Assembly: GCA_007136585.1 (NCBI GenBank)
Contig: SLGR01000036.1
Coordinates: forward strand, 1 to 10,468
Length of the DNA: 10,468 nucleotides
Direction of reading: 5' to 3'
DNA from: Candidatus Sumerlaeota bacterium
Lineage (GTDB): Bacteria; CG03; SLGR01
How positions within the stretch are numbered: the stretch's first letter is position 1; every line of letters starts with the position of its first letter. Below are positions 197 to 10,468 of the stretch, piece by piece. Under the pieces are notes generated by a model. The model worked only from the letters and a program-made list of their open reading frames with translations, made no database searches and was not told the origin of the DNA. The position numbers were made by a program, and so were the translations under genes.

Positions 197-841
197 ATGA
201 CAGAAGCTGTTATATTTGATCTTGACGGGATAGTAGTAGATACCGTGCCCCTGCATTACAGGGCCTGGAAACGTATGTTCTCCGAGTACGGGAAAGATTT
301 TTCCTTTGAGGATTACAAGGAAAAAGTGGACGGTATACCCCGCCTGGACGGGGCTCGGGCGGTTCTGGATTCATTAAATGAAAAGGAACTTGAGAATGCC
401 GCAGAAAGAAAACAGGTTTATTTCAGGGAACTCCTTGACAGCGGGGATATACCGCAGTACGAATCAACAGTAACTCTCATAAAGAAACTGCGCCGGGAAA
501 ATGTGCCGATAGCCGTTATATCATCAAGCAGGAACTGCTCCCACATACTTAAGAAAATAGGCATCTACCAAATCCTGAACTCTGTAGTTGACGGAAACCG
601 CCGCCTCCCCGGCAAACCCCGGCCGGATATCTTTCTTGCCGCGGCTGAAGAGACCGAAGCGGACCCGGCCGGGTGCGTTGTCTTTGAAGACGCTCTTCTC
701 GGAGTGGAATCCGCTAAATCCGCCGGGATGTTCGTAATAGGTGTAGACAGGTACGGGGATCCAAAACGACTTAAAGGAGCGGACCTTACAATAAGCGATG
801 CCTCTGAGATATCCCTTGAGGAACTTCTCTCACTTGTATGA
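197..841 (+). CDS. HAD-superfamily hydrolase, beta-phosphoglucomutase-like
   Basis: This 214-residue soluble protein has the usual length for the family. Motif I is FDLDG (nucleophile Asp8, acid/base Asp10), motif II is the Ser at 110-111 in VISSS, motif III is Lys140 in GKPRPD, and motif IV is Glu164-Asp165. His20 and Arg49 occupy positions important in beta-phosphoglucomutase (beta-PGM). The cap carries VDG-x-x-R-x-DG (44-52), which I recall from the HAD proteins found with family-65 glycoside phosphorylases. At residue 45 it has Asp where Lactococcus beta-PGM has Lys. Family knowledge suggests isomerisation of beta-glucose-1-phosphate to glucose-6-phosphate, or dephosphorylation of a related sugar phosphate. 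No phosphorylase gene is visible nearby to settle the substrate. The start is supported by the ribosome binding site at 182-190. The gene converges on the giant gene with 17 bp between stop codons and seems to be transcribed alone. Confidence 0.9.
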   Translation: MTEAVIFDLDGIVVDTVPLHYRAWKRMFSEYGKDFSFEDYKEKVDGIPRLDGARAVLDSLNEKELENAAERKQVYFRELLDSGDIPQYESTVTLIKKLRRENVPIAVISSSRNCSHILKKIGIYQILNSVVDGNRRLPGKPRPDIFLAAAEETEADPAGCVVFEDALLGVESAKSAGMFVIGVDRYGDPKRLKGADLTISDASEISLEELLSLV

Positions 842-858
842 GCCCCGCCTTACGGGTA

Positions 859-3800
859 TCAGTTCGCGTAAAGTATATTTGCTATCCTGCCGGGGTTTAT
901 GCCGGCGGTTATGCTCTCACCCGGGTCCCGACCCATTGCGCGCATTATAAACCCGCTGATATTTACAATCCAGGAGAAGCGTATCCCCGGTGAGAGGATA
1001 TCCTCGGCTCTAAGGGCGTCGTAACCGCTATATATCCCTGTCGCTGCAGCAAGAGGGGCAACAGGAAGCGCCATTATGTTAAGGGCCCTTACCAGGTGAG
1101 CCACACCTGAGATATCACCGGAATAACCTTCTATCACATCCTCCGGAGTTAGATACCCGGCTGCTGTAGCGTCAACAATCTTTCTACGCTCACCAAGGAA
1201 CTTTTCCATAATGGTAAGGACACGCCCGGCGATCGCGCCGCGGAAGTAAGCAGGCGCGGAAGCATAACTCCCGGAGCTTATAACTTCATCAAGAGTTGAG
1301 CTTATCTCGCCGGCAGCGGGGAGTTCCCCGGAGAGAAGAATCGGAAGGATATGTTCAAAAAAGACAGGCAGGGCTAAAGCGTCCAGTCCTTCTTCAATAC
1401 CCGCATTTTCAAGTTCTTCAAGATACATCCGCTCTATATCCCCGAAGACCCCGGCCCGGGCCCTGCTCTTTTCGTAAGCCGCTATTACTTTCACCATATC
1501 CGAAAGAAGTTCTCCCCCGCCCGTGCTCAGGGCCATAAGGCCAAGCCGCGTTAGTGTTTCTTCATCCAGTGTAAGAACCCCTGAACCATAGGAGGTTTTC
1601 TCACCCCGGGAGACCCGGATTCCCGATGCCGGGTCCGTAAGCTCAATATCCCTCTCAATGAGCCCGGCAACCCCTTCCATTTCCAGGGCCTTTCGTCTCT
1701 CACCGGAGATATTCCTGTAAAGAGCCGTAAGGTATCTCAGTTCACCCTCGGAGAAGTACTCTTTTAAACCGGGTTCTATCTTGCTCGGAAAGATACTCCC
1801 GGGCTCCAGGTTAACTCTGAGAAGTCCGGGGTCGGAGACAGATACCTCAACCCCCTCCTCCCTCAGAAGCGCGGCGATCTCTTCCGGGTTTTTACGGATA
1901 TCTCCCACCCTCTCTTCAACCAGTGACCATATCCCGCGGGATACGGCGGAGACGGACCTGGAAAACTCCTGTCCCCGCAGCGCGTCAGGAGCAAAGACAA
2001 ACTCGACAGGGATAAGTTCGCCGCCTATCTTTCTTAAAACGGTAAAATTGAGGTCATTTCGTTTTCCCTTCAGGGAAGCCCCGCCGGCGCCTTCAATAAG
2101 GTACCCCCCCTCGCTCAGCATCCCGGAGATTTCCTCAAGGTGAGCAGACCCCTCCTCAGCGCCGTACCAGTTGAGCGTGTTCATAACAAAAATAAGTTTT
2201 ATATTCTGCGGCCTCTCCCCTTCCGGGATTACAAAACCGCTCTCTAACAGTTTAAGGTTATCCCGTCCCCTTATTATCTCCCGGTACGGGTTTATCTCAA
2301 CCCTGTCCTTTCCGTTGTACCCCGGCAGGGAAGCCTGCCGGAACCTCTCCTCAAGTTCGGCTGCCTGCGCAGCGGGTATCTCATCCCGCTCTGTAACCTG
2401 CATCCGCTGTTTGCGGTAACTGACCCTGTCGGTTCTTAGAAGCCGGCCGTCGCTGTCAAAAAAGGCTATACTGCTCTCTGAACCGTCAATCAGGAGCTTC
2501 GCCGCGGGGATAAAACTGTCAACGGCGTAGACGTTCACCCCCTCGCCGGTTTTCTCAGAGATAAGCCTGGCAAAATAGGGAGCCGAGGAACCGAGATCAA
2601 GCACCGAGGCGGGACCCACCAGGGTATCCAGGAGACCTTCGGAATCGGCATATTCGGCGACCCCGGAAAGACGCCCTTCAAACGTAAAGGCAGAAGGTGT
2701 CATCGCGGCCGCGGGAGAGGCCTCCTCTATTACCCAAACTGCCGCCTCAACAGACCTTAGCGGACGCCGTCCTACGGAGGTCTCGTCCGAAAGAAGCAGG
2801 TAATCCACCGACTGCCTTACCGCTCTGGTTATATCCTCAATATTCTCCCTTGAAGGCGAATCGCTCTCAAGCATAGAAGTAAGAAGCCCCGTTGCCACGA
2901 TTACGGGTTTTTCCGCAAGTCGGGTTTTTTCGGCTATAAGTTCCTGTATCTCCCCGACCCTCTCTTCCCCGTAGATAAGGCCCAGGTCGCCCCTTGCTAT
3001 CAGGACCATATCCGAGGCAGCTGTTATCTCATCTAAATTTTCAAGTCCCTCCGACGATTCTATCTTGGATATCAGGAGCGGGCCTTCCCCTTCCCGGACT
3101 CCTATGATATCTCTTACAGCGCGTATATCCTCCGCGGATTCGGCAAAGGGTATAAGGAGAGCGTTTATACCATTTCTCCTGCCGAACTCCAGGTCGCTGA
3201 TATCTTTCTCCGTAAGCCGCTCCGCGCTCAGGGGCCTTATTACAGTCTCGCCGGGGAGTATCCCCGCACGCGGCCTGACAACCCCCGGTGTAAGAACCTC
3301 AAGCTCAACGGTACCATCTCCGGGATCGGCTGCGGTCGCCCGTACTCTCACCGGAGAATGCTCACCGTCAATAATGTAATCTTCTCCCGGAACCGTCTCT
3401 TCCGCAAACCTTTCATAATCCACTGTAAGGGTAATCCCCGGGGCTCCGGAGCGGCTATCTGTCGCGAGTATGATCCGGTCACCCTCCTCAAGGCTAAGCC
3501 TCCCGCCGGGAACCTCAGTCCCTATCCTTACTTTTCTTCCCTGGAGATCCTGCATAACCATAACCCGGCCTTCGAGCCCTTTCTCTTCTGCCAGTGAGTA
3601 GACCATACGGATAAGTCCCGAGGTTTTCTCCAGTTCTGAAGTTGAGGTTATATGAGAGAAGTTTATCCTGAAAGCCCTGACCCCGGCATCAAGCATGGCA
3701 GAAATCGTATCCCTGTCACTGGAAGAGGGGCCCAAGCTTGCCATTACCCCTGGAACCTCCCGTTTCCGGGAAAACCGGCTACGGAGTTCCTCCTCCTCCG

Positions 3801-6800
3801 TTGCCCTACGGGCCTCCGCCAGAATGAATGAATCCTCAAGGGCGCCTCTTACTCCGGAAAGAACAAGTTCATACCCGGTTTCGCTTATAGGTGCCGCTTC
3901 AAAACTCTCGAAAAAGTTCCGGCCTTCAGGGGTGCGGGCATCCATTCTTACCGCTGTTTTCCCGTAAAGAAGCGAGGTCCCTAGCACCGTCTCAAAAAGT
4001 TTTGCCGCAACTCCCTTTACCGACTTTTCTCTTCCCCTGTTCCAGGGCGCGTTCTCCATCCGGTCAATAAAAACGTGGTCCTGCTCTATATCATATGAAA
4101 GGAGCCCCTCTATCCGTCTACTCCCGTCCGGAAGAACGGTACTGAACCTGTAAACCTTTTTCGCCGGGTTTGCAAGGATCTCCGGCCAGCTGAACTTGTA
4201 ATCCTGCCAGGTGCGCTTTACATATAGGGCATCGTCACTTGAAGCAGGTTCTATCACCCAATTTCTGCCGTCGCTGAGGGTGCCGCTTACAATAAGGCTC
4301 TTATCAGCGCTTCCGGAAACTGATCGTTTATCCAGCCGCCCTCCCGACTCTATGTATATTTCTTTAGGAGTTGTTACTACCTCTACTTTCCCTACAGAGA
4401 TACCGCGTTCCGGTTCAGTTATGATTCTGCCCGGCGAATCCGTTCCGGGCAGAATTATATCTCCTGCCGAGAGAAACTGCCTGGAAGAGGGTTCTTCTTC
4501 CTGAAATCTTTCAAGGAAGAAGCTTAAGATATCTGCCGAATCAGTCGGATCCCCTACCAGGAGCGCATTAACCCCGGGAATATCAAGCACCTGGGCATCC
4601 GAGACCCTGAAATCATCTCCCAGGTAAAGCAGGTTTTCAATACTTATTCCCGTGTCCCTTATTAAATTTTCAACAGCTATCCCTTTATCGGATGAACTAA
4701 CCCAGGATACATATATATTGTCGGATTCACGACCGTTAACCTCGCCTTTGAACGGGTCTCTGTCCATAAAAACCGGAAAACCCATTCCCTCCTTCTCCAT
4801 GCGTAGTTTAACCGCCCGGTATATTTCCATATTGATCCCCGGCTGGGGAGCGGAAAACTTGAAAATAACATTACACTCCTCAAGGACTTCTAATTCAAAA
4901 AATCTGTCATCCAGCCCGAACTCCGATGCAGTTTCTCGGTATATCTCTTTTATTTTCTCGGCATACCCTGAGGAAAAAGTAACTGATCGCTCCCTGGATT
5001 TGCTTCTTCCCCTGCTGTTTAACTCGTATACCGAAGCCCCGCTTAGAGAGTAGACCCATATACTCTTTCCGGGGGGTAGTTCAGAGATAAGATCCGCCCC
5101 GCCGTCAGCTCCCCGCAGGTGCCCCTCTATCCTGTCGATATCCCCGGCGGTTACAATCACCGCTTCCCGTCCGGTTTCAATAACTTCTCTTATCAGGCGG
5201 TGTATACCCAGGCTTAAATCCATATCCGAGCGGTTTTCAGCCAGGGTTCCGTCATAATCAAAAACTAAGGTTCTGATCCCGTCAAACTCGCCTTCTTCTA
5301 TTAATTCTTTTACTTCGCCGGGTATAAGCGGCTGCGCGGAAGTATCCTCCGGAGCGGTGAAAGGGGCAAAATCCCCCCTGCCTGTAATACGGGAAACCGC
5401 GGCATCAAGAATCGATAGCCCCATATAGACCGAGCCTGCTATTATACCGGGCAGTGATCCCAGTAAAAGCGCGCCCAGGGAAAAAGCGGCGGCTCCAATA
5501 AGGAAAGTCGCAGCTACCCCGGCGTACCTTACAGCCGGCGGACCCCTTATCTCTGTCCTGCCTGTTATAAGGTCCGCGGGTTTTATCTCGCCCTTTTCTC
5601 CCGATATCCTTGAGGCCGCCCAGTGCGCAATCTCGTGGGCGGGGGTATAAAGAGAAAGAAAGAGCGGTATCCGCAGCACCCAGTTTGCACGGGAAGCTTT
5701 TCCTTCAAAAAGGTTCGCAAGCATGGACCTCATCCCGGGATCTCTCTCTTTATCCCTCTTAAGCTCCCTTGCTGTAAGGTACTGGGCTATGACCGCCATA
5801 CCAAGAGCCGTAACATCCGTAACGGTATGAACGCCGTCGGCAAAGAGCGAAACCGAGTTTGTCAGATACCCTACTATAAGCTGCACTACCATTGTAAATG
5901 AGGTAAGGCCCAGAACTGCCAGAAGCGCTTTCATACTGCCGGTTCCGTGGACGTGGCCGAACTCGAAACCGTCTTCACTCTGCCCGCATCCTTTATCATG
6001 AGTGTGACCATCGTGGTGATCGTGATGTTCGTGATGATGGGAGTCCTCCGCCGCGGGGGCTATAGCGGTATGAGGCTCCCGCGCGCGTTTTAAGGCCTCC
6101 AGCGAGCGTTTTATCTGCCCTGCGGCGCTACGCGCTACCAGGACGGATATAATCAGGCCTATTACCGGATCGGCAAGGGTCCACCCCAGGGTCAGTATAA
6201 GTACCCCGGCAACTATAACCCCGGCAGAGCTCAGGGCATCGCTTAATACGTGAAGGTATGCCCCCCGCATATTTATATCATCCCTGGAACCGGAATGAAG
6301 GATCTTTGCCCCTATAAGGTTAGCCACAAGTCCCCAGGCCGCGGCTATAAGCATCCCGACCCCCGCAACCTCGTGCGAGTCCCCGAAAAAGGCGGAGACC
6401 GATTCCTTTAATATGAATGCGGATGTAAGAGAGAGGAGTAATCCGTTGGCCAGGGCTGACCAGTACTTGTAAACAGGGGGCTTTTTATGCTCATGGCCGG
6501 GCGCTGGAGTATCCTCGTGAGTTCCGGAGACCCATCCGGATTCCCTTCTGAGGTAATCAAGTGATGTTGATCCGATTTCCGAAAAAGGATGAGTTTCAGC
6601 CTGCAGGCTGAGATTCTCCCGCTCCTTTACCCTGACAACCTCCTGCCTCCCATGCGCGCGGGCCAGGGCCCGATTAAGCGCGGAGGAGTTATCCGCCCCC
6701 TCAGTGTAATCTTCAGTAAGCGCGGCGGTGAATTCCTCATCAAAGAAACCAAAGACAAACTCCATATACTCGCTGCTCAGCCCCGCCTTATCCCGGAGGT

Positions 6801-9800
6801 TGTTAATTTCCATGCCTATCAGGGAAAGAGCTTCACCTATCTCAGGGGATGTGTAGGCCCCGGACTCTATCTCCTCCAGTATTCTGAGTATCTCAGCTTT
6901 GGACTCCCGCTCCTGACGAAACTGCGCAAGCTGTTTCATTATGAGATCACGCGGTGAGGCCGAATCAAATAGAACCGCTGTCCTTTTTCTGGCAAATGCG
7001 GGGAGTATCCCAACCTCGCCCGGATATGCAAACCCAAGCGAGACTGCATCATCCGCCCAACGCCGGTCCGTATCAGTTTCAAAGAAGGAAAGAGCGACCT
7101 GTGAAAACTCATGCAGAGCGTTCTCCCCGTAGGCGGAGCCGCCCATCCTGCCAAGTTTATCCCTTGCGTACTCGCCCCCTTTATCAGAGTAGTGAAGAAG
7201 GGCTGTTGTCAGAGCGTGAGTAAGATAAGAGGCGTCTAACGAATCATACTCGGCCGAACCCCTCCACGCGCTCAGCATATTTGAGAATCCTGACGGGATA
7301 ACCTCCCCCGTATCAAGAACCCAGAAGCCTAAATTCTCAATAATCCCGCAGAGTTCCTCACCGCTTAACTTAAATCCCAGTTCCTCAAATTCTCTCTCCG
7401 CTTCGGAGAGGGTGAACTGTTTCTTTACCTTTAACCTGCGTTCATCCAGCTTCCCGGCAAGACTTCTCATCCCGGGAGTGATACCCCTTCCCTCGTACTC
7501 CAGAATTTTATCGGAAGTCTGTATTAAGACGGCATTAAGGTTATTCATAAGAAGAGCCTCAGCCGCAAGTAAAGCCCTTTCATCGGGGTCAAGGCCTTCA
7601 AGAACTCTCCTGGCTGATACGTAGTCTCCTGAAAGCATATGGCGTCTCAGGCGAAACAGGTCTCTGCGCTCTTTGTACTGTCTGATAAACGCGCCGAGAT
7701 CATAACTTTCGGCAGCATCAACGTAAAAGAGATCAGAGGCAAGAACCCGTGCTATTACCGGAACCTCCTCCGGGTTCAGCTCCGGGAGTTCTTTGAGAAG
7801 AGCATCTTTAAGGGTGGGGAGAACTTCCCGGAATATGAACTCCGAGTATTCGCCCGACTCACGGGCCAGGGCGCCCAGCTCTTTTCCCAGAGCCTTAAGT
7901 TTCTCCCTTGTAAGTTTTGTATCCTCCGCGTCAGTAAAGACTCCCTGAAGCAGGGAAAACCCGTAGAGAACCTCTTCGGCATACTCCTCCCCGGCATTGT
8001 TTATAATCTCAAGGAGCTCCCCGCCAAAATACCGCAGCCGCGCGGAGCTAAGCGAGGGGTTTCTCTTAACCCAAACAACCCCGCTTAAGGAGGAAAGAGC
8101 GTCCCGGAACAGGAAAGCCGAGGCCGGGCCGGCCTCCAGGGCAAGCTCTTTAAAGGTTTCCCAGTGGGTCTTAATAAAATCAACGCCGTAAGCCTTCTTC
8201 AAGGCACCAAACCCCTCCGGAGACAGAATATTTGAATTGTTTCCGGCCCGCCGGACCATAAGAGCCAGGTCATTTCCAAACTTAAGAAGGTTCTGAGCGG
8301 TCTTTTCTTTATCGCCTTCCACTTGTATAAGCTGCTTTAAAATGGAAAGAGCCTCAAAGAACGGGGCGCTGTCTCCGGATTCCGTGCCAAGTTTCACCAG
8401 TTCATCCCAGTAATCTTTTACAAACTCCGCGCCGAAACCCTTTTTAAGAGCGGGAATACTCCTTGCTCCCAGATACCATGAATGAGTATCCTTCATCAGC
8501 AGATCCAGGTCAGCGGTGAATTTTCTGATATTACCGGTGATTTCTTCAATATTTTCCCCGGCCGTTACCTCCTCCTTAAGGGCCGGCAACCCGTGTTTGA
8601 AAAGGTAAAACGCGTTTCCGTCAGATTCAGCCGCTGCCGAGACCAGGGTTTTCCAGTGGGTCCTGAAAAAATCCAACCCGAACTCTTCAACCATAGCAGG
8701 GAGAGCCCTTTTAAGAAAAGCGCCGGACTGAGCTTCCGTAATCTCTAAAATTCGCAGAAACTCCGAGCTGATATCCGATGAGAGAAGAAGTTCCCTTACC
8801 TCCGGAGTAAGCTCATCTAAGGAAACTCCGGAAAGTTCCTGTACCTTATCAAGGTATATATCCCGGATATTATCTTCAAGGATCGATTTCTCCGTTAGCG
8901 CGGTTTCAAGGGCGGTTTCAGGATCAGCCTGCCAACTGGAAAATAATCCCGATTCCCTTTCTTCATAGGAAAGAGTCTCAAAAACCTCAAGTGAAACATT
9001 AAGGGCTTCAATGGAATCCTCCAATAGAGACCAGCGCTTCAGCTCATCGGGCTCAAGGCCGCTCATTAGAAGCAGAGTATATCCCATACCCATAAAGGCC
9101 TCACAGTTTAACACGTCTCCTGTTATTTTCTCTCTACGGGTGAATTTTTCATAAGCCTTAAAAGACTCCTCTAGAAGCTTATATTTACTCCGGTTATCCG
9201 TCTCTTCAAGGTATTTTTCAAAAAGATTATCACCCAGTTCAAAGTACCCGATATCATCATATCCTGCCTCAATGGACCTGTGATAACCCTCTATAACAGC
9301 ATCAACCCATTTATCCCGCTCCCGGGGTGTATCCGCTAACATGTGCAGCGCATCTAAAATACGGATCATTAAGTTATACGTTACAAGCCAGTATCCGTGC
9401 AACGAAATTGCTTTTTCAACTTTCTCCAAGGCTCTGAACAGAAGCTCCCTCTCTTCTTCTATATCAGATGCAAATTTACTCCCATAAAGCAACACCTCTG
9501 CTGTATTGGAGTGATAGCACGCGTTACTTACATCAAGAGCGCAGGCTCGTTCAGATAATGTAAGAACCAGGTCATATAATTCCCACAAATTCTCATGATC
9601 CTGCTTGAATAGTATTACAGATAGCGCAGCCGCCAGATTGGTATTCAGAGAAGCCAATAATCCCTCCGCCGGTCTTGATACACTAAGAACCCGGGTCCTG
9701 TTAATCCCGGGTTCTTGCGGCTCTTTAAATTTTAAGGCAATACCTTTTTCTTGTCTGAAAGCCTCGCTTATGTAGCCTTCGTGTATAGCATCAAGAGAAC

Positions 9801-10468
9801 TGGTATATTTTGTATTGGACGGGTCAAAGAGAAAATAAGATCCGTCTGAAAGCTCCAGAACCAGGAATATATGTCCGGGGTAAGTTCCGGTAAAAGCCCT
9901 GTCTTCTCCAACCCCTATCTCCTTAAGTATCCGTGCCGAAAGCATAGTTTTACCCACACAGCAGAGTTCCCCGGTCTGATAAATGAACTCAGGAGACCAG
10001 TCCATGGGCTCATCATCCACCCAGCCCGGATATCTCTCAACTGTCTCAGTAATTTCAGTTATTACCCTTATCTCCTCATCAGTATCCCCCGATGCCGAGG
10101 CTATACTCATACGCCGCTCCCATTCATCCATAGGAAGGGTTTCTTTTAATAAGCCTTCCTCTTCCCCGGGATATACAAGAGATGTGTACATCCTCTCAAG
10201 ACCCTTAAGGAATACCGCGTGCTCAAGGCGGGTAATTAAATCAGAAGCAACCTCTGAAGCAATATAATCGGGTATCTTCAGCGCCCACTCCTCAAGGCCG
10301 TACGGGTCCCTGAGATTCTCACGCGTAAGACCAAAACTTTCTCCAAGATACTCCAGTACCGCTTCCTCATCGCCTTCAAATTCCCGGGCCCTGAGCCCCT
10401 CGTAAGAGTTCCCTTCCGGGCTCGCCTTTCCGCTGAACTTCTCTCCAAGGTAATAGAGTACCTCCAGA
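859..10468 (-). CDS. Giant multidomain protein, at least 3202 residues, N-terminus outside the window
   Basis: The frame runs from the TGA at 859-861 to the right edge without a stop. The Met at 10191 is internal: 92 further in-frame codons (10192-10467) encode acidic, helix-rich sequence of the same character. Domain order counted from that Met: transglutaminase-like 66-126; TPR-like 180-450; about 82-residue repeats 474-805; unrecognised 806-1195; permuted CDF transporter 1239-1475 with a His-rich loop; membrane HExxH segment 1500-1605; HAD-IIB phosphatase 1636-1898; GNAT-like 1985-2112; pyruvate kinase 2142-2492; methyltransferase-like 2505-2745; unrecognised 2746-3110. Each domain is listed separately. 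Several keep intact catalytic residues. The membrane segments put the central part in the membrane. The overall role is unknown. Uncultured phyla such as Omnitrophota are known for ORFs of this size. A single frame over 9.6 kb argues against a string of frameshifted genes. Confidence 0.95.
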   Translation of the reverse strand, partial: LEVLYYLGEKFSGKASPEGNSYEGLRAREFEGDEEAVLEYLGESFGLTRENLRDPYGLEEWALKIPDYIASEVASDLITRLEHAVFLKGLERMYTSLVYPGEEEGLLKETLPMDEWERRMSIASASGDTDEEIRVITEITETVERYPGWVDDEPMDWSPEFIYQTGELCCVGKTMLSARILKEIGVGEDRAFTGTYPGHIFLVLELSDGSYFLFDPSNTKYTSSLDAIHEGYISEAFRQEKGIALKFKEPQEPGINRTRVLSVSRPAEGLLASLNTNLAAALSVILFKQDHENLWELYDLVLTLSERACALDVSNACYHSNTAEVLLYGSKFASDIEEERELLFRALEKVEKAISLHGYWLVTYNLMIRILDALHMLADTPRERDKWVDAVIEGYHRSIEAGYDDIGYFELGDNLFEKYLEETDNRSKYKLLEESFKAYEKFTRREKITGDVLNCEAFMGMGYTLLLMSGLEPDELKRWSLLEDSIEALNVSLEVFETLSYEERESGLFSSWQADPETALETALTEKSILEDNIRDIYLDKVQELSGVSLDELTPEVRELLLSSDISSEFLRILEITEAQSGAFLKRALPAMVEEFGLDFFRTHWKTLVSAAAESDGNAFYLFKHGLPALKEEVTAGENIEEITGNIRKFTADLDLLMKDTHSWYLGARSIPALKKGFGAEFVKDYWDELVKLGTESGDSAPFFEALSILKQLIQVEGDKEKTAQNLLKFGNDLALMVRRAGNNSNILSPEGFGALKKAYGVDFIKTHWETFKELALEAGPASAFLFRDALSSLSGVVWVKRNPSLSSARLRYFGGELLEIINNAGEEYAEEVLYGFSLLQGVFTDAEDTKLTREKLKALGKELGALARESGEYSEFIFREVLPTLKDALLKELPELNPEEVPVIARVLASDLFYVDAAESYDLGAFIRQYKERRDLFRLRRHMLSGDYVSARRVLEGLDPDERALLAAEALLMNNLNAVLIQTSDKILEYEGRGITPGMRSLAGKLDERRLKVKKQFTLSEAEREFEELGFKLSGEELCGIIENLGFWVLDTGEVIPSGFSNMLSAWRGSAEYDSLDASYLTHALTTALLHYSDKGGEYARDKLGRMGGSAYGENALHEFSQVALSFFETDTDRRWADDAVSLGFAYPGEVGILPAFARKRTAVLFDSASPRDLIMKQLAQFRQERESKAEILRILEEIESGAYTSPEIGEALSLIGMEINNLRDKAGLSSEYMEFVFGFFDEEFTAALTEDYTEGADNSSALNRALARAHGRQEVVRVKERENLSLQAETHPFSEIGSTSLDYLRRESGWVSGTHEDTPAPGHEHKKPPVYKYWSALANGLLLSLTSAFILKESVSAFFGDSHEVAGVGMLIAAAWGLVANLIGAKILHSGSRDDINMRGAYLHVLSDALSSAGVIVAGVLILTLGWTLADPVIGLIISVLVARSAAGQIKRSLEALKRAREPHTAIAPAAEDSHHHEHHDHHDGHTHDKGCGQSEDGFEFGHVHGTGSMKALLAVLGLTSFTMVVQLIVGYLTNSVSLFADGVHTVTDVTALGMAVIAQYLTARELKRDKERDPGMRSMLANLFEGKASRANWVLRIPLFLSLYTPAHEIAHWAASRISGEKGEIKPADLITGRTEIRGPPAVRYAGVAATFLIGAAAFSLGALLLGSLPGIIAGSVYMGLSILDAAVSRITGRGDFAPFTAPEDTSAQPLIPGEVKELIEEGEFDGIRTLVFDYDGTLAENRSDMDLSLGIHRLIREVIETGREAVIVTAGDIDRIEGHLRGADGGADLISELPPGKSIWVYSLSGASVYELNSRGRSKSRERSVTFSSGYAEKIKEIYRETASEFGLDDRFFELEVLEECNVIFKFSAPQPGINMEIYRAVKLRMEKEGMGFPVFMDRDPFKGEVNGRESDNIYVSWVSSSDKGIAVENLIRDTGISIENLLYLGDDFRVSDAQVLDIPGVNALLVGDPTDSADILSFFLERFQEEEPSSRQFLSAGDIILPGTDSPGRIITEPERGISVGKVEVVTTPKEIYIESGGRLDKRSVSGSADKSLIVSGTLSDGRNWVIEPASSDDALYVKRTWQDYKFSWPEILANPAKKVYRFSTVLPDGSRRIEGLLSYDIEQDHVFIDRMENAPWNRGREKSVKGVAAKLFETVLGTSLLYGKTAVRMDARTPEGRNFFESFEAAPISETGYELVLSGVRGALEDSFILAEARRATEEEELRSRFSRKREVPGVMASLGPSSSDRDTISAMLDAGVRAFRINFSHITSTSELEKTSGLIRMVYSLAEEKGLEGRVMVMQDLQGRKVRIGTEVPGGRLSLEEGDRIILATDSRSGAPGITLTVDYERFAEETVPGEDYIIDGEHSPVRVRATAADPGDGTVELEVLTPGVVRPRAGILPGETVIRPLSAERLTEKDISDLEFGRRNGINALLIPFAESAEDIRAVRDIIGVREGEGPLLISKIESSEGLENLDEITAASDMVLIARGDLGLIYGEERVGEIQELIAEKTRLAEKPVIVATGLLTSMLESDSPSRENIEDITRAVRQSVDYLLLSDETSVGRRPLRSVEAAVWVIEEASPAAAMTPSAFTFEGRLSGVAEYADSEGLLDTLVGPASVLDLGSSAPYFARLISEKTGEGVNVYAVDSFIPAAKLLIDGSESSIAFFDSDGRLLRTDRVSYRKQRMQVTERDEIPAAQAAELEERFRQASLPGYNGKDRVEINPYREIIRGRDNLKLLESGFVIPEGERPQNIKLIFVMNTLNWYGAEEGSAHLEEISGMLSEGGYLIEGAGGASLKGKRNDLNFTVLRKIGGELIPVEFVFAPDALRGQEFSRSVSAVSRGIWSLVEERVGDIRKNPEEIAALLREEGVEVSVSDPGLLRVNLEPGSIFPSKIEPGLKEYFSEGELRYLTALYRNISGERRKALEMEGVAGLIERDIELTDPASGIRVSRGEKTSYGSGVLTLDEETLTRLGLMALSTGGGELLSDMVKVIAAYEKSRARAGVFGDIERMYLEELENAGIEEGLDALALPVFFEHILPILLSGELPAAGEISSTLDEVISSGSYASAPAYFRGAIAGRVLTIMEKFLGERRKIVDATAAGYLTPEDVIEGYSGDISGVAHLVRALNIMALPVAPLAAATGIYSGYDALRAEDILSPGIRFSWIVNISGFIMRAMGRDPGESITAGINPGRIANILYAN
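862..1956 (-). other. Unrecognised C-terminal region of the giant protein
   Basis: Residues 2746-3110 are mostly helical and acidic at first. A mildly hydrophobic stretch (about 3035-3060, ALNIMALPVAPLAAATG) and the segment RFSWIVNISGFIMRAMG lie near the end, which reads NPGRIANILYAN. I recognise no family. A peripheral membrane association is possible. Confidence 0.5.
1957..2679 (-). other. Domain: class I methyltransferase-like Rossmann fold
   Basis: Residues 2505-2745 include SVLDLGSSAPYFARLI (2529-2544, motif I, Asp2532 and Gly2534), VYAVDSF with Asp2558 at the position that normally contacts the SAM ribose, IKLIFVMNTLNWYG (2664-2677, motif IV strand) and MLSEGGYLIEG (2691-2701, post-IV). 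A long insert separates motifs II and IV. Motif I lacks the usual GxGxG (here GSSAP), so SAM binding is plausible but not assured. It takes the place where pyruvate kinase would carry its C-terminal domain. Confidence 0.6.
2322..2341. repeat. Perfect 8-bp hairpin with tetraloop inside the giant gene
   Basis: CCGGCAGG at 2322-2329 pairs with 2334-2341 across a 4-nt loop. It lies in coding sequence within the methyltransferase-like domain. No T-run follows. Confidence 0.5.
2716..3768 (-). other. Domain: pyruvate kinase (A and B domains), K+-independent type
   Basis: Residues 2142-2492 follow pyruvate kinase from end to end of its barrel and lid: FRINFSH (Arg2175, Asn2177, Ser2179), DLQGRKVRIG (Asp2215, Arg2222), ISKIESSEG (Lys2376 and metal ligand Glu2378), ARGDLG (metal ligand Asp2402), ATGLLTSM (Thr2434) and LLLSDETSVG. 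The Leu/Gln/Lys/Ile pattern in DLQGRKVRI is the known signature of K+-independent pyruvate kinases; K+-dependent ones have DTKGPEIRT. The family's C-terminal allosteric domain is absent. Departures from consensus are Pro to Arg in DLQGP, Gln to Gly in ATQ, and Gly to Asp in SGET. The expected reaction is PEP plus ADP to pyruvate plus ATP; the key residues make activity plausible. Confidence 0.85.
3856..4239 (-). other. Domain: GNAT-like acetyltransferase fold
   Basis: Residues 1985-2112 resemble the GNAT core: a strand RIEGLLSYDI, a strand HVFIDRMENAPWN, then KGVAAKLFETVLGTSLLYG as the helix that normally follows the acetyl-CoA loop, TAVRMDA as the next strand, and RNFFESFEAAPI, typical of the C-terminal GNAT helix and strand. 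The usual [RQ]xxGx[GA] loop is only partly matched (EKSVKGVA), so acetyl-CoA binding is uncertain. The preceding part (1905-1985) is beta-rich and unassigned. Confidence 0.55.
4424..4455. repeat. Perfect 11-bp inverted repeat with 10-nt loop in the HAD/GNAT linker
   Basis: ATTCTGCCCGG at 4424-4434 and its exact complement at 4445-4455 flank 10 nt. The geometry is identical to the repeat at 9685-9716 and it likewise encodes an interdomain linker (residues 1913-1923, ILPG..SPGRI). Confidence 0.75.
4498..5286 (-). other. Domain: HAD type-IIB phosphatase
   Basis: Residues 1636-1898 hold all four HAD motifs: DYDGTL (Asp1645, Asp1647), VIVTAGD (Thr1681), SSSDKG (Lys1836) and YLGDD (Asp1859, Asp1860). 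The long insert between motifs II and III is a type-II cap, as in Cof-like, sucrose-phosphate, trehalose-phosphate and phosphomannomutase enzymes. The likely reaction is phosphate removal from, or mutase action on, a sugar phosphate; the substrate cannot be read from sequence. It is not a copy of the separate HAD gene at 197-841, which has a type-I cap. Confidence 0.85.
5377..5694 (-). other. Domain: membrane HExxH segment, possible M50-like protease
   Basis: Residues 1500-1605 contain HEIAHW (His1519, Glu1520, His1523) directly after a hydrophobic stretch (WVLRIPLFLSLYTPA). Two further hydrophobic segments lie at about 1555-1580 and 1583-1600 and end in ILDAAVSRI. HExxH in or next to a membrane helix, then a second pair of helices with an Asp, is the layout of site-2 (M50) proteases. 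The usual LDG motif is not clearly present (LDA instead), so the family is tentative. Confidence 0.45.
5538..5577. repeat. Imperfect inverted repeat, 11 paired bases with 2-nt bulge
   Basis: GCGGA-CC-CCTTAT (5538-5550) can pair with ATAAGGTCCGC (5567-5577), leaving CC bulged and a 16-nt loop. It lies in coding sequence between two membrane segments. Confidence 0.45.
5767..6477 (-). other. Domain: cation diffusion facilitator (CDF), permuted TM3-6 then TM1-2
   Basis: Residues 1239-1370 match TM3-TM6 of ZitB/CzcD-type CDF exporters: ALANGLLLSL..ILKESV, GLVANLIGAKILHSG, the TM5 motif HVLSD (His1314, Asp1318), GWTLADPVIGLI and RSAAGQIKRSL. A His-rich stretch (1383-1416) follows, then residues 1418-1475 match TM1-TM2, including SLFADGVHTVTD (His1455, Asp1459). 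The four canonical site-A ligands are therefore all present, but the helix pairs are in the order 3-4-5-6-1-2. The cytoplasmic C-terminal domain of CDFs is missing. In normal CDFs both the termini and the TM2-TM3 loop are cytoplasmic, so this permutation keeps the topology. The expected role is Zn2+ or other divalent metal export by proton antiport; transport is inferred. Confidence 0.85.
5944..6045 (-). other. His-rich metal-binding loop between the CDF halves
   Basis: Residues 1383-1416 include DSHHHEHHDHHDGHTHDKGCG and a later HVH, as found at the N-terminus or in the TM4-TM5 loop of zinc CDFs. A smaller His cluster (GTHEDTPAPGHEHKK) lies before the first helix, at about 1223-1237. Both would be cytoplasmic and could deliver metal. 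Confidence 0.8.
6607..7776 (-). other. Unrecognised soluble segment of the giant protein
   Basis: Residues 806-1195 are acidic, mostly predicted helical, without membrane segments or a motif I can name. A conserved-looking patch lies at 985-1060 (HALTTALLHY, ALHEFSQVALSFFETD). The last part (1080-1195) looks like long charged helices leading to the transporter section. Confidence 0.5.
7777..8772 (-). repeat. About 82-residue internal repeats (four units), likely alpha-solenoid
   Basis: Residues 474-805 hold four related units. The motif FG-x-[DE]-F(5-7 residues)W recurs at 504 (FGLDFFRTHW), 586 (FGAEFVKDYW) and 668 (YGVDFIKTHW), exactly 82 residues apart each time. Each is preceded by PALKK- or GALKK-type sequence and followed by a pattern like [AE]SG-x(4)-F-[LIF]-F. 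A fourth, divergent unit (716-805) keeps the tail EFIFREVLPTLKDAL. DNA similarity survives in places (near 8158 and 8650, CCAGTGGGTC), which suggests fairly recent duplication. The predicted all-helical structure suggests a protein-binding scaffold. I recognise no named family. Confidence 0.75.
8842..9654 (-). other. Domain: TPR-like helical region
   Basis: Residues 180-450 are almost entirely predicted amphipathic helices. Several helix pairs look like degenerate tetratricopeptide repeats, for example 312-350 (ELGDNLFEKY then ESFKAYEKF) and 365-406 (AFMGMGYTLLLM then EALNVSLEVFE). TPRs commonly follow transglutaminase-like domains and mediate protein contacts. No unit is canonical enough for a firm call. 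Confidence 0.4.
9685..9716. repeat. Perfect 11-bp inverted repeat with 10-nt loop inside the giant gene
   Basis: AAGAACCCGGG at 9685-9695 and its exact complement at 9706-9716 are separated by 10 nt. It encodes residues 159-169 (QEPG..TRVL), the linker after the transglutaminase-like domain. No T-run follows on either strand, so it is unlikely to be a terminator. Confidence 0.75.
9814..9996 (-). other. Domain: transglutaminase-like (Cys-His-Asp)
   Basis: Residues 66-126 fit the transglutaminase-like or papain-like fold. A Cys (77 or 78, in GELCCVGKT) opens a helix that continues as LSARILKEIGV. His107 lies on a strand in PGHIFLVLEL, and Asp123 follows in YFLFDPS. The spacing and the strand-ending FDPS match bacterial transglutaminase-like proteins, many of which act as cysteine peptidases rather than cross-linking enzymes. 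TPR-like helices follow, as in several known family members. The fold is fairly clear; the activity and substrate are not. Confidence 0.65.
10192..10467 (-). other. Unassigned 92-residue stretch before the first visible Met
   Basis: This is the in-frame translation upstream of the Met at 10191. It is acidic and predicted helical. It contains two similar short motifs, VLYYLGEKF and VLEYLGESF, about 36 residues apart, which hints at another small repeat continuing beyond the edge. No family was recognised. Confidence 0.6.

Follow-up and report, generated by a model that had tools for sequence, protein, structure and literature searches.

The window, i.e., the whole analyzed stretch of 10,468 bp, carries a giant ORF in which the helices of a CDF metal transporter follow one another in an unusual order. 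The question is whether these helices make up one circularly permuted transporter domain or are what remains of two transporters. The results obtained favor, with a probability of roughly 0.7, a naturally circularly permuted ZitB/CzcD-like CDF domain that lacks the C-terminal domain (CTD) and is a putative zinc/proton antiporter within a mosaic giant protein. The coordinates of the features are listed in Table 1.

Table 1. Positions of the giant ORF, the parts of its permuted CDF domain and the downstream modules in the window.
Feature	Position	Strand	Residues	Remarks
Giant ORF	859..10468	(-)	at least 3,202 aa	runs off the contig edge
CDF TM3 equivalent	6385..6474	(-)	1240-1269	PF01545 67-197; AF2 helix
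TM4 equivalent	6286..6363	(-)	1277-1302	conserved Asn1291; PF01545; AF2 helix
TM5 equivalent	6187..6276	(-)	1306-1335	site-A ligands His1314 and Asp1318; Ser1322
Site-A ligand codons, TM5	6250-6252; 6238-6240	(-)	His1314; Asp1318	
TM6 equivalent	6079..6174	(-)	1340-1371	ADP motif (Asp1341); AF2 helix
Linker	5941..6078	(-)	1372-1417	46 residues; His-rich; predicted disordered
TM1 equivalent	5863..5940	(-)	1418-1443	PF01545 2-54; AF2 helix
TM2 equivalent	5749..5853	(-)	1447-1481	site-A ligands His1455 and Asp1459
Site-A ligand codons, TM2	5827-5829; 5815-5817	(-)	His1455; Asp1459	
Membrane HEXXH module	5362..5742	(-)	~1484-1610	HEIAH 1519-1523; directly after TM2
HAD-IIB-like phosphatase stretch	4609-5268	(-)	1642-1861	TIGR01484, E 2e-5, under cut-off
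Pyruvate-kinase-like barrel	2749-3747	(-)	2149-2481 (to about 2494)	under NCBIfam cut-offs

Helix order of the CDF domain

The initial annotation placed TM3-TM6 ahead of TM1-TM2 within residues 1239-1475 of the giant ORF (window 6477-5767), and both the coordinates and the order proved to be correct. Positions 67-197 of the profile PF01545 were found at window 6091-6468 (residues 1242-1367; E 4e-19), while positions 2-54 were found downstream in the ORF (window 5764-5922; E 3e-9); that is, the second part of the domain maps before the first in the CDF profile. The same reversal was obtained with TIGR01297 (positions 74-198 in the first half and 2-59 in the second) and with the ZitB model NF002923 (91-212 followed by 15-74). 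The matches, each in two pieces, reached 98.8 bits for PF01545 (cut-off 26.6) and 151.5 bits for TIGR01297 (cut-off 82.35); NF002923 was the best-scoring equivalog with 116.6 bits, which is far under its equivalog cut-off of 408 bits. Among solved structures, the first half matched TM3-6 of ZnT7, ZnT4 and ZnT3, and the second half matched TM1-2 of ZnT1 (residues 10-62).

All six CDF helices are present, in the order 3-4-5-6-1-2 and not in the usual order from TM1 to TM6, and none of them is duplicated. Apart from the CTD, only profile positions 55-66 are absent, and these correspond exactly to the cytoplasmic TM2-TM3 loop in which the cut had been proposed to fall. The view that there are six helices without an extra copy also held at the level of the genome, which contains just the two halves and one ordinary CDF. 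The initial description of the domain was right as to helix order and overlooked the missing CTD. A ZT_dimer domain, which is usual but not universal at the C-terminus of CDFs, is absent from the permuted CDF and was found genome-wide only on the ordinary one; it is present in the control CDFs L046, L060 and L001.

In every ordinary CDF for which the two halves could both be detected (46 of 46), TM1-2 preceded TM3-6. A junction query (TM5-TM6-linker-TM1-TM2) gave an end-to-end match in the window only, in a search of about 780 genomes (386 drawn as relatives and 395 of the phylum with the best half-matches, 3 being shared). Neither the same architecture nor the same flanks were found in 15 other genomes of the phylum of the window, and viral contigs gave no match.

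Site residues, topology and linker

The four site-A ligands named in the initial annotation (His1314, Asp1318, His1455 and Asp1459) were all found, and they lie in columns aligned with those of CDFs. The domain also keeps Asn1291 in TM4, Ser1322 in TM5 and Asp1341 in TM6, the equivalence being drawn from the alignment and the motif; E. coli ZitB mutants changed at these three positions lose function (table in PMC1868760). The TM1 Glu of CDFs is replaced by Gln, and the conserved glycine region of the TM2-TM3 loop is lost. In a plant CDF, the loop glycine is essential and the G118A variant has no function (PMC1868760). The CDF signature of 2007 (PMC1868760) consists of a TM2 block, then 20-25 residues and then the loop glycine; its TM2 block matches residues 1446-1462, and a match to the full pattern puts the glycine in the next module, which is probably a coincidence. 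Judging from that work and from general knowledge of the family, the His-Asp/His-Asp site would point to zinc.

It is also conceivable that the order is real and that transport was lost, so that the giant protein would use the domain to anchor itself in the membrane by six helices or to sense metal. In line with this, the domain has lost its CTD and its TM2-TM3 loop and lies among other domains, some of which show altered motifs, and the genome contains a separate ordinary CDF. However, although the identity to the nearest relative is only about 39%, the domain retains the four ligands as well as the Asn in TM4, the Ser in TM5 and the Asp in TM6, which argues for selection on the site and not on hydrophobicity alone, and a loss of transport is considered rather doubtful.

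For the permuted transporter, the initial annotation had stated that the cut preserves topology. Lys and Arg residues cluster on the ends and loops that are expected to be cytoplasmic, and none occur in the three periplasmic loops; this positive-inside pattern fits the predicted topology with cytoplasmic ends.

Residues 1371-1417 include 12 His. Many ordinary ZitB-like CDFs have a His-rich tail ahead of TM1, and the aligned tails run into the linker of the window, a likeness that is partly biased, since the pattern HHHEHHDH was used to fetch the loci. The genome G347, which was found through a genome search without this pattern, also aligns with the linker and TM1-2. It contains an ordinary CDF (L075, contig C33), encoded by an open frame of 501 aa, and the His-rich tail and TM1-2 of this CDF were the best match found to the linker and TM1-2 of the window. 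Because CDF tails align into the linker, and because such a composition is expected when a CDF is joined end to end, the linker is best read as the old C-terminal side followed by the old His-rich N-terminal tail. The His-rich loop reported initially is thus present, and it is better read as the CDF's own N-terminal tail lying between TM6 and TM1.

Predicted structure

The input alignment for AF2 was built from a stable set of fragments without alterations and included each of the six helices. It led to five similar models with a mean pLDDT of 71-76 and a pTM of 0.69; an earlier AF2 run had yielded one good model out of five. The helix blocks mostly had pLDDT values of 79-94 and the linker was disordered. 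TM4-5 and TM1-2 were predicted with good confidence to lie in one bundle.

Foldseek aligned 125-137 columns with YiiP at 2.0-2.4 A, which was read as TM3-6. With VIA-align, 158-162 residues (model 44-250), extending over the permutation joint, were superimposed on ZnT8 and ZnT1 at 3.4-3.5 A. This match may be read as TM4-TM5-TM6-TM1-TM2 placed on TM1-TM5 in a shifted register through the pseudo-symmetry of the core. Ferritin-type four-helix bundles scored as well as CDFs in VIA-align (Z 13-14), and therefore this result indicates a joint four-helix core and is not CDF-specific. The structural aligners work in sequence order and are unable to trace a permutation; their scores were not used as proof. 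Together, AF2 and VIA-align support the packing of TM1-2 with TM4-5 in one bundle, which is in favor of the initial annotation; the fold and topology of the domain are predicted ones.

The two halves could also work across chains, with TM1-2 packing against TM3-6 of a neighbor as a domain swap in a CDF dimer. CDFs are dimers, the 46-residue linker is long enough, and the prediction was made for a single chain; nevertheless, the single chain was similarly confident in all five models, making a partner unnecessary, and the swap appears unlikely. A domain-swapped form would still be a permuted CDF.

Relatives and single origin of the two halves

When each half was scored alone against 47 relatives, the same three were at the top, namely L046 (Chloracidobacterium) and L060 and L047 (both Gemmatimonadetes); the rank correlation was 0.56. 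The domain is about 39% identical to its nearest relative. In the combined tree, the window sequence formed a long branch within the ZitB-like group, next to further long branches, and its exact place is not trusted. A plain alignment put TM1-2 fragments on TM3/TM5, and another pulled TM6 onto TM1; CDFs are internally similar, which accounts for the misplaced TM1-2 fragments. Both halves come from one ZitB-like CDF, since they are complementary, hold all four ligands and share their three closest relatives.

A side-by-side decay of two CDF genes or domains without a common fold, e.g., of a tandem pair minus its outer parts, is very unlikely, because both halves pick the same three relatives. 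A permutation would itself probably pass through a tandem pair that lost its outer parts, which makes the histories overlap, and TM1-2 scored slightly better with the DmeF model than with the ZitB model. Against two remnants, the halves are exactly complementary without overlap, no leftover helices were found ahead of TM3, TM2 abuts the next module, and the joint fold is predicted with confidence. A DmeF origin of the TM1-2 half was rejected, as its TM2 has H-D, compared with H-H in DmeF-like rows. The initial preference for a permutation over two decayed transporters is thus upheld by the non-overlapping halves, the shared relatives and the retention of nearly every functional residue tested.

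The giant gene and its genome

The first ATG of the giant ORF is at 10191, which gives a protein of 3,110 aa (10191-859, (-)). The source genome is a draft of 257 contigs that is 88% complete, and the permuted CDF is known from a single draft contig of this one genome. The codon usage of the CDF stretch is that of the remainder of the giant gene, even across the joints, and no long repeats were found at the CDF joints, which makes an assembly error less likely. A whole-genome profile search revealed one other CDF only, an ordinary protein of 289 aa on a different contig, and no complementing CDF half elsewhere in the genome. The 289-aa CDF belongs to a branch distant from that of the window CDF and is not the source of the permuted domain. 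An artefact of assembly in this metagenome-like contig, which the draft state of the genome and the absence of the order in any relative might suggest, is hardly credible given the intact 3,202-codon frame through all joints, the uniform codon usage without long repeats, and the lack of an ordinary copy of the permuted CDF in the genome that could have been misjoined.

Directly downstream of TM2, the HEXXH module gave no match in Pfam or among solved structures. It was also found without any CDF in another giant ORF of the same genome (L026, contig C150) and twice, again without a CDF, in a giant ORF of the genome G004 (L005, contig C119), where the second copy lacks HEXXH; the modules of the window, L026 and L005 share the start 'SLANLFEGK...ANW'. 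Given this recurrence without a CDF, the module is an independent one to which the CDF was joined.

Besides the HAD-IIB-like stretch, a separate HAD-like gene is located at 197-841 (+). The pyruvate-kinase-like barrel has altered motifs, e.g., DLQGRK in place of the DLQGPK of ordinary enzymes. Near the start of the giant protein (residues ~76-135; ~9780-9970, (-)), a stretch has a transglutaminase-type Cys-His-Asp look by eye; it gave no match in Pfam. The region ~1980-2690 (-) also looks methyltransferase-like by eye (VLDLGSSAPYFARL, later MNTLNWYG).

Proposed mode of action and origin

The permuted domain most likely works like a ZitB-type CDF. The chain would enter the membrane at TM3, run through TM3-TM6 and return to the cytoplasm, where the flexible His-rich linker would connect what was once the C-terminal side with the former N-terminal side; TM1-TM2 would then end in the cytoplasm, and the remainder of the giant protein would continue there. 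TM1, TM2, TM4 and TM5 would assemble into the four-helix core usual for CDFs, and His1455/Asp1459 (TM2) together with His1314/Asp1318 (TM5) would constitute site A. Zn2+, or a similar divalent ion, would be exported against H+, and the linker may collect the metal on the cytoplasmic side. The domain likely originated when one CDF was duplicated in tandem or fused end to end and its outer parts were lost along with the C-terminal regulatory domain. An arrangement in which the permuted CTD-less zinc exporter acts as a unit with the adjoining HEXXH metallopeptidase-like module, giving or withdrawing its metal, is improbable.

Comparison with known systems

Circular permutation is a familiar feature of soluble proteins, but recent cases in multi-helix transporters are seldom encountered; the rearrangement of such transporters is thought to be constrained by the order of helix insertion and by topology. 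The initial annotation knew of no described permuted CDF, and a literature search with the terms tried likewise found none. As an experiment of nature, the domain may show how much rewiring membrane transporters tolerate. With nearly all conserved CDF features kept, it becomes testable whether TM1-TM2 must insert first and whether the TM2-TM3 loop and the CTD are needed. It also offers a case for how a transporter domain enters a giant mosaic protein.

The domain resembles ZitB and other zinc CDFs (E. coli ZitB, CzcD, ZnT1/3/4/7) in its six helices, the His-Asp/His-Asp site A, the TM4 Asn, TM5 Ser and TM6 Asp, the His-rich N-terminal tail and the cytoplasmic ends. However, their order is tail-1-2-3-4-5-6, whereas that of the window is TM3-4-5-6-tail-1-2, without ZT_dimer and the TM2-TM3 loop and inside a giant multi-domain chain. 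Because its helix order differs and the C-terminal domain is missing, it is no ordinary member of the CDF family.

It has been proposed that CDFs arose from a tripled two-helix hairpin and that Orai/CRAC channels arose from TM3-6 of a CDF (PMC2894845); these proposals make the TM2/TM3 boundary a natural seam. The same boundary is involved in Orai, which is proposed to have lost TM1-2, whereas the window CDF moves TM1-2 behind TM6. The only other zinc-transporter case found is the ZIP family, for which an ancient permutation was proposed (PMC13192868), and a 'mix-and-match' reordering of helix blocks was proposed for the MFS (Madej et al. 2013, as cited in PMC3962082). As in these proposals, blocks of transporter helices are reordered and the fold is kept. 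The ZIP and MFS cases are ancient, family-wide and deduced from symmetry, whereas the window CDF is a single case that still shares about 39% identity with ordinary relatives. Omnitrophota commonly have giant ORFs whose function is little known (PMC10066038), and no report of a permuted transporter in them was found; like these ORFs, the giant protein of the window is very large and poorly conserved, and known domains and membrane helices are scattered along it.
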